Shown piece by piece: positions 45,445 to 51,248 of a stretch of 64,000 bases of DNA (position 1 is the stretch's first letter; each line of letters opens with the position of its first letter). Position numbers and translations under genes: made by a program. Origin of the DNA: Gemmatimonadota bacterium (GTDB taxonomy: Bacteria; Gemmatimonadota; Gemmatimonadetes; Palauibacterales; Palauibacteraceae). The notes below the pieces were generated by a model. That model ran no database searches, was not told where the DNA came from, and was given only the letters and a program-made list of their open reading frames with translations. The DNA lies in contig JAJEEM010000042.1 of assembly GCA_022820995.1 (NCBI GenBank), positions 1-64,000 on the forward strand, written 5' to 3'.

Positions 45445-47289
45445 CTAAAGCCGTTCGAGCACTGCAGCGGCCCGATCCACCTCGTTTCCGGGCGTGCTGA
45501 CGAGCGCGCCCGCCACATGGGGCCGGATCGCATCCAGCACCTCGCGAGCCACGTCGACACCCTCCCGCGCGGCCGCCTCGGCTCCGCGCTCCTGCGCCCG
45601 CGCCATTCGCTTCAGCACATCGGGCGGCACGTCGACGCCCGGCACCTCGTGCGCCAGGAACTCCGCGTTCTCCAGCGACATCGGGGGCCAGAGACCCGCG
45701 AGGAGCGGCACGCCGAAGTCCTCGATCTCGCGTACGAAGGCGAGGAACTTCTCCGGGTTGAAGATGGGCTGCGTCACGGCGAAGTCCGCGCCCGCCTCGG
45801 CCTTCCAGGCAAAGCGCCGAATCTCTTCCTCCGCGTCGACGGCGCCGGGGTTCACGGCGACGCCCTTCACGAACGACGTCGGGGCCCCGATCGAACTCCC
45901 TCCCGGATCGAGGCCGAGGTTGAGCTGCCGGACGATGTTCGTGAGTCCGATGCTGTCGATATCGTACACGCCGCCCGTGTCGTACGGGCCGCCGCGCGGG
46001 GGGTCGCCGGTGATGAGAAAGACGTTGCGGAGACCCGCCGCGGCGGCGCCGAGGAGATCGCTGAGCATGCCGAGCATGTTGCGGTCGCGGCAGCTGTAGT
46101 GCGGGACCGCCTCCATGCCGAGTTCGCGTTCGATGACGATGGCGGCGGGGAGCGAGGCGATGCGGCTCCGGTGGGCGGGGCCGTCGACGATATGAACGGT
46201 GTGCACGCCGGCGTCGCGGAGCCGGCCGGCTCCCGCCACCAGTTCGCCCGGGTCCCACCCGTGGGGCGGCGTCAACTCCACCGCCCCGACGAACTCGCCG
46301 CGCGCGAGACGGCGTCCGAGCGCCGAGCGGTCCGCGAGCGGGGGCGGTTCGGTCGCCGCCTGGCCGGCGGCCTCGCTCGGAGAGGCGACGGACACGCGGG
46401 CCGTCCCCGGTCCGTGCGTCCCGAGCAGCGTCGCCGTCAGCCGCGTGTGCTCGGGGGACGTGCCGCAGCACCCTCCCACGAAGCGGGCGCCGGCCCCCGC
46501 CATGCGCCGGGCGTAGCGGGCCATGTATTCCGGACTCGCGAGATAGATCTTCCGGTCCCCGATGTCGCGCGGCAGCCCCGCGTTGGGCAGCGCGGAGACC
46601 GGCCGCGACGTCGCCGCCACCATCCGCTCCACCCCGAACAGCATCGAGGACGGGCCGACCGAGCAGTTGAGGCCGATGACGTCGGCCCCCGCCCCTTCCA
46701 GCGCCGCCGCCGCAGCTTCGATCGTGGCGCCGTACTCCGTGTGGCCCGCGTCTCCGAAGGTCATCTGCGCGAAGACCGGCGCCTCCCCCGCGACCTTCCG
46801 CACCGCCCGCACGGCCTGCACCAGTTCGTCGAGGTCGGAGAACGTCTCGAGCATGAAGCCGTCGACGCCGCCTTCCGCGAGCCCGGCGACCTGTCTCCCG
46901 AAGAGGTCGGTCGCCTCGTCCACCGACGTGGGCCCCCAGGGTTCGATGCGGATGCCGAGCGGGCCGATCGCCCCGAGCACCTCGGCCCGCTCTCCGGCCG
47001 CCTGTCGGGCCAGGCGCGCGGCCGTCGCGTTGATTTCGCGCACCGACGGCTCGAGGCCGAACGGCTCAAGTTTGACGGGGTTCGCGCCGAAGGTGTTCGT
47101 CTCGATGAGCTGCGCCCCGGCCCGGACGTAGTCGGCGTGGACGCCGAGGACGAGGTCGGGCTCCGAGAGGTTCAGTTCGTCGTAGCACTGGTTGACGAAG
47201 ACGCCGCTCTCGTAGAGCACCGACCCCATCGCGCCATCGATCAGGTGAACCCCGTCTCCGGCGATCCACTCCCGCAGCCGGTCGCTCAT
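45445..47289 (-). CDS. Bifunctional homocysteine S-methyltransferase / methylenetetrahydrofolate reductase
   Basis: The 614-residue fusion has an N-terminal homocysteine methyltransferase domain with zinc cysteines in IGLNCSVG and [13 protein letters not shown] MetF-like barrel starts near residue 330 ([34 protein letters not shown]). This architecture is known from YitJ-type proteins. It makes methyl-THF and can move methyl groups to homocysteine. The ATG overlaps the metH stop (ATGA), so it belongs to the SAM-II controlled operon. Confidence 0.93.
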
Positions 47290-50200
47290 GTCGCCTCCGG
47301 ATCCCGGTCGTACGCGAGGTTGGGCGAGAGGCGTCGCTCCGCCTCGGCGAGGGAGACCCCGCTCCGCTCGGCGTAGTCCTCCACCTGGTCGAGTCCGATG
47401 CGGCCGAGACCGAAGTAGCGGGCCTCCGGCCGCGCGAAGTACCACCCGGACACCGAGGCGGCGGGGTGCATGGCGTAGTTCTCGGTGAGAGCGATCCCGA
47501 TACGGCGCTCCACCTCGAGCAGGTCGAAGAGGAGCGCCTTCTGGGAGTGGTCGGGGCACGCCGGGTAGCCGGGGGCCGGCCGGATGCCGACGTAGCGCTC
47601 CGCGATCCGGGCTTCGTTGTCGAGCGCTTCGTCCCGGGCGTATCCCCAGAGGTCCGTCCGCACGATCTCGTGCAGGCGCTCGGCCAGCCCCTCGGCGAGC
47701 CGGTCGGCGAGGGATTTCGCGAGGAGGCTCCGGTAATCGTCCGCCGTCGCCTCGAAGCGCGCGCAGAGCGCCTCCAGACCGATCCCTGCCGTCACGGCGA
47801 AGGCGCCGCTCCAATCGGCGGCGCCGGCCGCCTCGGGCAGGACGAAATCGGCCAGGCTGACGTTCGCGCCGGCCGAGCGGTCCATCTGCTGCCGCAGGTG
47901 CGGCACCCGCAGCAGCTCGCGCCGGCCGCTTTCCGGGGAGAAGAGGACCAGGTCGTCCCCCCGCGCCGCGGCCGGATACAGCCCCGCGACCGCGCGCGCC
48001 GTCAGGGACCCGTCGGCGATGATCCGGTCGAGCAGCCCGCGGGCGTCATCGTACAGCGACCGCGCCGCCGCCCCCCGTTCGGGATGGTCGAGCAGTCCCG
48101 GGAAGCGACCCTTCATTTCCCAGGTCCGGAAGAAGGGAGTCCAGTCGATGTATTCGACCAGTTCCTCCAGCGGGAACGGGTCGTACACGTGCACGCCGGG
48201 TTCCCGGGGGGCCGGCACCGCCACGGCCGCGTCGACCGGGAGCCGGTTCGCGCGGGCCCGCTCGAGCGTCGCGAGCGGGCGCCTCCCGTCCCGGTACTCC
48301 GCCCGCACGCGCCGGTACTCGGCGCGCGTCCGCTCCACGAAGTCGGCTCCGCCGTCGTCGCCCAGCAGCTTCCCCACGACCCCGACGGCCCGCGAGGCGT
48401 CGAGCACGTGCACGGTCGCCCCCGAGTACCGCTCCTCGATCTTGACGGCGGTGTGCTTCCGGGAGGTCGTCGCGCCTCCGATGAGGAGCGGCACCGCGAA
48501 CTCCTGCCGTTCCATCTCGCTCGCCACCCGCACCATCTCATCCAGCGACGGCGTGATCAGGCCGCTGAGCCCGATCACGTCCGCGCCGTGGGCCCTCGCC
48601 TCCGCAAGGATGCGGTCCGGGGGGACCATGACGCCGAGATCCACGGTGTCGTAGCCGTTACACTGCAGCACGACGCCGACGATGTTCTTCCCGATGTCGT
48701 GGACGTCCCCCTTCACCGTCGCGAGGAGAATCGTCCCCTTCCCCTTCCGGACCACCCCTTCGGAACCCGGGTTCGCGCCCCCCTCGGAGGTCGCCAGTGC
48801 CGCCTTCTCCGCCTCGAGGTGAGGGACGAGGAAGGCGACGGCCCGCTTCATCACGCGCGCCGATTTCACGACCTGGGGCAGGAACATGCGACCGCTCCCG
48901 AACAGGTCGCCGACGCGGTTCATCCCCGCCATGAGCGGCCCCTCGATGACCTCGAGCGCTTTGCCGTACAGGAGACGGGCCTCCTCGGCGTCCTCTTCGA
49001 TGTGTTCGACGATCCCCTCCACGAGCGCGTGCTCGAGCCGCGCCTCGACGCCCTCCGAACGCCAGGCGTCGTCCAGCCGGGTCTCGATCCCCTCGTCACG
49101 GATCCGGCCCGCGAGGTCCGTGAGCCGCTCTGTTGCGTCGGGCCGGCGGGCGAGCAGGACATCCTCCACCGCTTCGAGCAGTTCCGGGTCGATGTCGTCG
49201 TAGAGCGGAAGCCGCCCCGCGTTCACGATCCCCATGTCGAGTCCGGCCGCGATCGCGTGGTACAGGAAGGCCGTGTGCATCGCCTCCCTCACGGCGTCGT
49301 TTCCCCGATAGGAGAACGAGATGTTGCTGATTCCGCCGCTCGTCAGCGCGCCCGGGAGTTCGTTCTTGATCCGGCGGACGGCTTCGATGAAGGCGACCCC
49401 GTACTCGTCGTGCTCCTCGATTCCGGTCCCGACGGCGAAGACGTTGGGATCGAAGATGATCTCCCCCGGGCGGAACCCGGCGCCGAGCAGGAGGCGGTAG
49501 GCGCGGGCGCAGATCTCCAGCTTGCGGTCCACCGTGTCCGCCTGTCCGCGTTCGTCGAAGGCCATGACGATGACACCGGCCCCGTAGCGGCGGATGGGGG
49601 CCGCCTGCTCGAGAAACGCCTCCTCTCCCTCCTTGAGCGAGATCGAGTTCACGACCGCCCTTCCCTGCGTACACTTCAGCCCCGCCTCGATGACCTCCCA
49701 GCGCGAGGAGTCGATGACCGTCGGGACGCGGGCGATGTCGGGCTCCGCCGCGATGAGGTTCAGGAAGCGCGTCATCGCGGCCTCGGAGTCCAGGAGGCCC
49801 TCGTCCATGTTCACGTCGAGAAGCTGCGCGCCGTTCAGGACCTGGTCGCGCGCGACCTCGACCGCCTCGTCGAAATCGTCCTCCCGGATCAGCCGCGCGA
49901 AGCGGGCCGAGCCCGTGACGTTCGTGCGCTCGCCGATGTTCACGAACAGCGTGTCGGGCCGGATCGCCAGCGGCTCGAGACCCGAGAAGCGGGGCAACGG
50001 CTCGATCGCGGGCACCGGCCGCGTCGGCACCCCGTTCATGCGATCGGCGATCGCCCGGATGTGTTCCGGCTCCGTCCCGCAGCAGCCGCCGACGACGTTG
50101 AGGAGCCCGCGATCCGCGAAGTTCCCCAGCAAATCGGCCATGTGGGCGGGCGTATCGTCGTAGCCGCCGAACTCGTTCGGGAGGCCCGCGTTCGGGTGGC

Positions 50201-51041
50201 AGCTGACGGGGACGTCGGCCACCGCGGAGAGTTCGGCGACGTAGGGCTCGAGTTCCCCGGCTCCGAGCGCGCAGTTGAGACCGACGAAAAGGGGGTCGGC
50301 GTGACGGATCGAGAGCCAGAACGCCTCGACCGTCTGCCCCGAGAGCGTGCGTCCCGACAGGTCCGTGATCGTCCCCGACACGGCGATGGGGAGGGCCTCG
50401 CCAAGCTCCGCGCCGAGTTCGAGGATGCCATGGATCGCGGCCTTCGCGTTGAGCGTGTCGAACACCGTCTCGACGAGCAGCACGTCGGCGCCGCCCTCCA
50501 GCAGCCCCTCCGCCTGAGCGCGGTACGCGGCGGCCAGTTCATCGAACGTGACGGCGCGAAAGGCGGGGTCCTCCACGTCCGGAGAGAGGGACGCCGTCCG
50601 GTTCGTCGGACCCAGGCTCCCGAGCACGAAGCGGGGACGGGTCGGGTCCCTGCGCGTGACGTCGTCGGCGGCCCGGCGTGCGAGCCGCGCGGCCGCCACG
50701 TTGAGTTCGCGGATCAGCCGCGCGTTGCCGTGTTCCGGCGAGATGCCGTAGTCCGCCTGGGAGATGGCCTGGGCGTTGAAGGTGTTCGTCGTGATGAAAT
50801 CGGCCCCGGCCTCCAGGTAGCTGCGGTGGAGGGACGCGATGTCGTCGGGACGGGTGAGGCACAGCACGTCGTGGTTCCCGAACAGAGGCCGGGGATGGTC
50901 CGCGAGCGGACCCGCGCGGTAGGCCGCCTCGTCGAGGTCAAGCCGCTGGATCATCGTTCCCGTGCCGCCATCCATCAGGAGGATGCGCCGATCGAGCGCC
51001 TCCCGAATCTGTGCGACCCGTTTTCTTCGGCCTTCGGACAC
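47286..51041 (-). CDS. metH: Cobalamin-dependent methionine synthase MetH
   Basis: The 1251-residue enzyme has all MetH modules. These are homocysteine binding (zinc motif [12 protein letters not shown]), pterin binding ([12 protein letters not shown]), the B12 cap and Rossmann domain with DVHDIGKN (axial His781), and the C-terminal activation domain with [12 protein letters not shown]. The GTG at 51041 is chosen because GGGGTG lies 6 bases before it. A GTG at 51050 would sit on the terminator T run. A SAM-II-like riboswitch and terminator lie just upstream. Confidence 0.96.
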
Positions 51042-51053
51042 GACGTTCACCCC

Positions 51054-51091
51054 AAAAAAAAGCCCGGCCGCCAAAGAATCGCGCCCGGGGC
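51054..51091 (-). terminator. Intrinsic terminator in the metH leader
   Basis: On the minus strand GCCCCGG (51085-51091) and CCGGGC (51062-51067) form a GC-rich stem with one bulge, extended inside by CGC/GCG. It is followed at once by eight T residues (51061-51054), ending 12 bases before the metH start. Placed right after the SAM-II-like aptamer, it is the expected expression platform for transcription control. Confidence 0.75.
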
Positions 51092-51093
51092 GT

Positions 51094-51146
51094 GGCTCTT
51101 TAGCGATTGTTTTGCGTGGCTGCAATCCGCCTCAAATCACCACGTC
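51094..51146 (-). ncRNA. SAM-II-like riboswitch upstream of metH
   Basis: The minus-strand RNA has the SAM-II features in order: P1 CGUGG (51140-51144), UGAUUUG (51133-51139), P2 GAUUG (51123-51127), then GCAG, P1' CCACG (51115-51119), CAAAA, P2' CAAUC (51105-51109) and the conserved GCUAAAG (51098-51104). Both stems pair perfectly and form an H-type pseudoknot. The sequence closely resembles SAM-II (SAM_alpha) elements that I know mainly from Alphaproteobacteria. It should lower metH operon expression when S-adenosylmethionine is plentiful. Confidence 0.85.
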
Positions 51147-51248
51147 CGGGTTCCCCCGGCGAACCTGAAACTAGCGCTCTTGCAACGCCGACGAAACTTG
51201 AATCGGACACCATTAAACGATGTCGCGCGAAGATGTGTCTGGCCTTAC

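Follow-up and report, generated by a model that had tools for sequence, protein, structure and literature searches.

We find that a genuine SAM-II riboswitch, ordinary as an aptamer to judge by its sequence and presumably SAM-binding, occupies positions 51153–51080 of the minus strand in the 64,000-nucleotide stretch of Gemmatimonadota DNA analyzed here (the window). It is followed by an intrinsic terminator and an operon for methionine synthesis. We consider it likely that this element is an OFF switch of the metH/HMT-MTHFR operon acting by transcription attenuation, in which the pairing of UCGCUAAAGAG with UUCUUUGGCGG serves as the antiterminator.

A SAM-II riboswitch ahead of metH had been proposed from the sequence-only reading of this locus, and covariance-model searching bears this out. 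The match to RF00521 (SAM_alpha, SAM-II) scored 45.7 bits against a cutoff of 36 (E = 4.3e-7; Rfam cmscan over 64 kb), and was the only Rfam match above the gathering cutoff in the whole window. It is also the single copy of the family in the 3.7-Mb genome (genome-wide E = 5.9e-9). The leader contains the perfect stems CGUGG/CCACG and GAUUG/CAAUC and the core motifs UGAUUUG and GCUAAAG, all as previously read. Thus, a score above the cutoff is joined by P1, an H-type pseudoknot (P2), the core UGAUUUG...GCUAAA, and a location before genes of the methionine/SAM pathway. Because the RF00521 model holds only P1 and leaves the pseudoknot unscored, the perfect pseudoknot is support beyond the score itself. 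Both helices are 100% paired in 12 distinct relatives, where they are identical throughout. The stems are therefore conserved, but no covariation in P1 or the pseudoknot was found within the genus among these 12; with no sequence variation, the genus-level stems are uninformative on this point.

The terminator hairpin begins 8 bases past GCUAAAG and is followed by a C and then U8, matching the earlier description of a hairpin and eight T residues. A simple terminator scanner applied to the window did not include this hairpin among its calls, probably owing to a stem mismatch and a loop over the scanner's limit. Terminator-like hairpins with a U-tract were present in 65 of the 82 Gemmatimonadota SAM-II leaders, compared with 22% of dinucleotide shuffles, and so are not there by chance. 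Terminator coupling had been thought to extend the SAM-II mechanism; this does not hold. Many SAM-II representatives with putative intrinsic terminators were reported by Corbino (2005, PMC1273637), and terminators have been the usual SAM-II partner in reports since 2005–2007 (PMC1273637; Barrick and Breaker 2007, PMC2258182). SAM-driven Rho-independent termination was also predicted in 2022 for the S. meliloti metZ SAM-II (PMC9373788), and 26 of 30 alphaproteobacterial SAM-II leaders that we examined have an intrinsic terminator. Upstream of the aptamer, CAAGTTT...CTAGTTT (window 51168–51200, minus strand) is kept in most Palauibacter leaders despite variable neighboring sequence. A simple scan found no sigma-70 consensus match at this element, which we regard as a promoter candidate from its conservation; transcription would start at about 51162–51158.

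The gene behind the leader is metH, as had been read (NF007024, 1895 bits; cutoff, 1497). Its start is most plausibly GTG 51041. The same GTG is common to close relatives, which places the metH frame and the GGGG preceding it behind the U-tract. The second gene, described earlier as a methyltransferase fused to MTHFR, belongs to the known bifunctional family NF006396 (628 bits) and overlaps the metH stop by 4 nt. MetH relatives at 88 to 95% identity come from Candidatus Palauibacter and from MAGs whose titles read Gemmatimonadales bacterium or Gemmatimonadetes bacterium, in keeping with the host phylum suggested at the outset. The host is a marine bacterium belonging to Ca. Palauibacter.

Table 1. 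Features of the SAM-II leader and the operon behind it, in window coordinates.
Feature	Position	Strand	Remarks
Promoter-like -10 element TAGTTT	51168..51173	-	Putative; kept ahead of the aptamer in most Palauibacter leaders
SAM-II aptamer	51080..51153	-	RF00521
P1 5' strand CGUGG	51140..51144	-	Partner 51119-51115; no change in 12 distinct relatives
Pseudoknot (P2) 5' strand GAUUG	51123..51127	-	Partner 51109-51105; invariant in 12 distinct relatives
P1 3' strand CCACG	51115..51119	-	Partner 51144-51140; invariant in 12 distinct relatives
Pseudoknot (P2) 3' strand CAAUC	51105..51109	-	Partner 51127-51123; invariant in 12 distinct relatives
Candidate antiterminator 5' strand UCGCUAAAGAG	51096..51106	-	Contains the conserved SAM-II GCUAAA; 11 bp with 51078-51068
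Second P1 3'-strand copy CCACG	51091..51095	-	Possible alternative partner of CGUGG; not above swap control
Intrinsic terminator hairpin	51063..51089	-	-17.3 kcal/mol; a single compensatory change (G-C to A-U) seen in a relative
Candidate antiterminator 3' strand UUCUUUGGCGG	51068..51078	-	Within the terminator loop and 3' arm
U8 tract	51054..51061	-	Read from the sequence
metH, cobalamin-dependent methionine synthase	47286..51041	-	1251 aa; NCBIfam NF007024, TIGR02082; five Pfam domains
Bifunctional homocysteine S-methyltransferase/MTHFR (HMT-MTHFR)	45445..47289	-	614 aa; NF006396, 628 bits (cutoff 453)

The candidate antiterminator, which was absent from the sequence-only reading, surfaced on folding of the growing window transcript. 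It includes the CGCUAAAGA pairing, involving 51077–51073, and would form in place of the pseudoknot as well as the terminator. At low SAM, UCGCUAAAGAG in the aptamer would be left unoccupied and would pair with UUCUUUGGCGG as the RNA exits the polymerase. This would take away the terminator loop and inner 3' arm, and the polymerase would continue into metH. SAM binding would sequester the UCGCUAAAGAG strand in the pseudoknot, allowing the terminator hairpin to fold and transcription to end at U8. The conformation of P2 changes when the metX SAM-II RNA binds SAM (PMC10907184; PMC5352136), which supports such a switch because the antiterminator strand belongs to P2.

Comparative evidence shows that the competing pairing is enriched across the phylum. 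Among 41 thinned Gemmatimonadota leaders, 13 showed at least 6 bp between the aptamer CUAAA strand and the terminator apex plus 3' arm (0.98 expected), and 10 showed at least 9 bp (0.06 expected). Expected counts were derived from 364 unrelated Gemmatimonadota terminators, with the apex and 3' arm alone scored. This background was drawn from twenty stretches of 20 kb each plus the retrieved loci. Both leader strands were masked after 12 background matches in a first version looked like antisense SAM-II leaders. The p-values for enrichment are optimistic even after thinning, as the sequences are related. Four distant relatives with other flanks show pairing of the same kind: GUCGCUAAAAAGC with GCUUUUUGGCGAC in G050, GCUAAAACGC with GCGUUUUAGC in G207, UGCUAAAAGG with CUUUUUGGCA in G384, and CGCUAAAACG with CGUUUUGGCG in G330. 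At the unconstrained flanking positions, native combinations are paired more often than shuffled ones (64% versus 56%; 0/2000 shuffles), and a swap test also favored the native combinations (p 0.02). Within the genus, the pairing has no double compensatory change. The CGCUAAA/terminator-apex pairing occurs in only about one-third of the terminator-bearing Gemmatimonadota leaders. A second pairing type, in which AAAnGCC pairs with the last part of the 3' arm plus the U-tract, was enriched too, reaching at least 7 bp in 16 of the 41 thinned leaders (3.0 expected); it was also scored in 23 of 26 alphaproteobacterial leaders, a set that has no background control. The test of apex and 3' arm took the place of an earlier complementarity test in which the U-tract was counted as well and A-rich/U-rich pairing acted as a confounder.

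An attenuator with a different antiterminator was our first idea, and is now a doubtful one, kept as a rival. Here, CGUGG (51144–51140) and the CCCGG upstream of it would pair with the second CCACG...CCGGG (51095–51084), removing the terminator 5' arm. No Palauibacter leader lacks the second CCACG, and only two (G089 and G321, without the upstream CCGG extension) depart from the CCGG-A-CGUGG context. The helix, which appears in minimum-energy folds, scores -14.1 kcal/mol by itself; the best structure that contains it has -28.2 kcal/mol. However, it coexists with the terminator in most folds, and so need not antiterminate. Furthermore, across the phylum, swapped arms are at least as complementary to the aptamer as the native ones, such that the genus-level conservation of the repeat is not matched by a phylum-level signal.

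For the UCGCUAAAGAG/UUCUUUGGCGG antiterminator, local stability is favorable: in the window, its hairpin has -20.2 kcal/mol compared with -17.3 to -18.0 kcal/mol for the terminator. Its probability is approximately 0.5 to 1.0 at 3' ends 51070–51066, with assumed starts at 51162–51158. When the full leader is folded at equilibrium with nested structures, the terminator is favored even without SAM for most assumed starts. Across 34 leaders, the apo terminator probability was not below that obtained with unrelated terminators. We therefore set aside equilibrium apo/holo folding as proof of switching, its outcome being negative or dependent on the start. Since the antiterminator dominates only when the 3' end is at about 51070–51066, a kinetic decision must be assumed.

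Ordinary SAM-II translation control, in which the aptamer would mask the ribosome binding site and the terminator would be constitutive or unrelated, is very improbable at this locus. Such masking is the textbook account for the metX SAM-II RNA (PMC10907184), and in other Gemmatimonadota leaders (L050 and L008) the start codon lies right behind the aptamer, without a terminator. In the window, however, the GGGG before the metH start is located past the U-tract, some 45 nt from GCUAAAG, and falls outside every predicted aptamer helix; moreover, a strong terminator that was never relieved would silence the methionine synthase operon. Least credible of all is a decayed aptamer that no longer binds SAM, with the hairpin as a plain leader attenuator: the best alphaproteobacterial copies do score higher (up to 76.8 bits, against 45.7 here), but every conserved core letter and both stems are in place and do not vary among 12 distinct relatives, and SAM-II adjoins methionine genes throughout the phylum.

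The presence of SAM-II in Gemmatimonadota, put forward earlier as an extension of its range, is real, but it is phylum-wide and not peculiar to this locus. Matches over the cutoff were found in 221 of 395 Gemmatimonadota genomes, in 56 of 142 genomes of Alphaproteobacteria (the class of Salipiger), and in 2 of 118 of Bacteroidota (the phylum of Pedobacter). At a looser threshold (E <= 0.001), 92 of 138 Gemmatimonadota genera have a match. SAM-II is thus as common in Gemmatimonadota as in Alphaproteobacteria, Rfam's namesake group, and there it mostly precedes metH. Among 81 Gemmatimonadota leaders taken from the best-scoring RF00521 matches, metH is the commonest following gene (47/81), and the HMT-MTHFR and MTHFR groups jointly account for about 15. 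Others include a MetX-Hom frame, homoserine dehydrogenase, and O-acetylhomoserine sulfhydrylase. Targets listed for SAM_alpha in Proteobacteria are metY, metA, metX, metC, hom, and metW, with metH absent (PMC4239095). Our search of the open-access literature, which did not take in Rfam species lists and is weak evidence of absence, found no report of SAM-II in Gemmatimonadota and no experiment on this RNA.

Several of these leaders differ in their genes or architecture. Eight (L158, L162, L181, L185, L186, L195, L197, and L198) are linked to a divergent metH, with approximately 38 to 41% identity in the homocysteine domain and 28% in the cobalamin part. One leader is followed by a 745-aa frame comprising MetX (homoserine acetyltransferase) and homoserine dehydrogenase, a possible fusion (L199:1104-3338), and another by a 469-aa frame with a ThiS/MoaD-like domain at its end (L182:1250-2656). 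L046 and L047 (the places of L003 and L004), among the highest-scoring SAM-II copies of the phylum, read CUAAAAUGGACGCG and have a GCGCCUG/CAGGCGC hairpin after the aptamer without a U-tract; the frame downstream of L047, from a simple ORF call, has no Pfam or NCBIfam name. In L050, L007, L008, L011, L014, and L016, the aptamer runs straight into the start codon (CUAAAACGCCAGGAUG or a similar sequence) and there is no terminator, so that these copies look like translation-type switches. The L050 copy reads into HMT-MTHFR.

Whether Gemmatimonadota evolved their own phylum-specific SAM-II platform is, in our judgment, an evenly balanced question. In such a platform, the ligand-binding CGCUAAA would double as the antiterminator by pairing with a complementary UUU(A/G)GCG that forms part of the loop and inner 3' arm in the adjacent terminator, and this fusion of aptamer and terminator would be a main control of methionine synthase in the phylum. 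If true, the sensing strand would also be the antiterminator strand, meaning that the expression platform has been rebuilt. This would be a compact case of one aptamer gaining different output wiring in different phyla, and would offer a simple sequence rule for recognition. The output wiring is probably a new variant, and the candidate antiterminator is the only part of the mechanism that may be new.

The closest known system is the alphaproteobacterial SAM-II (metA motif), with which the window element shares the aptamer, a compact H-type pseudoknot, a nearby downstream terminator, methionine-pathway targets, and a presumed OFF logic. The window element differs in having metH as its target. 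The terminator also starts about 5 to 9 nt after CUAAA in Gemmatimonadota, compared with mostly 13 to 23 nt in alphaproteobacterial leaders, and CGCUAAA/terminator-apex pairing was found in none of the 26 terminator-bearing leaders from that class. The S. meliloti metZ SAM-II (PMC9373788) is similar in that SAM binding is predicted to permit a Rho-independent terminator, but concerns another gene in another lineage. SAM-II long loops RF01726 (Bacteroidetes, marine; PMC2864571) is a divergent SAM-II group that likewise occurs outside Alphaproteobacteria, whereas the window element fits the ordinary RF00521 model.
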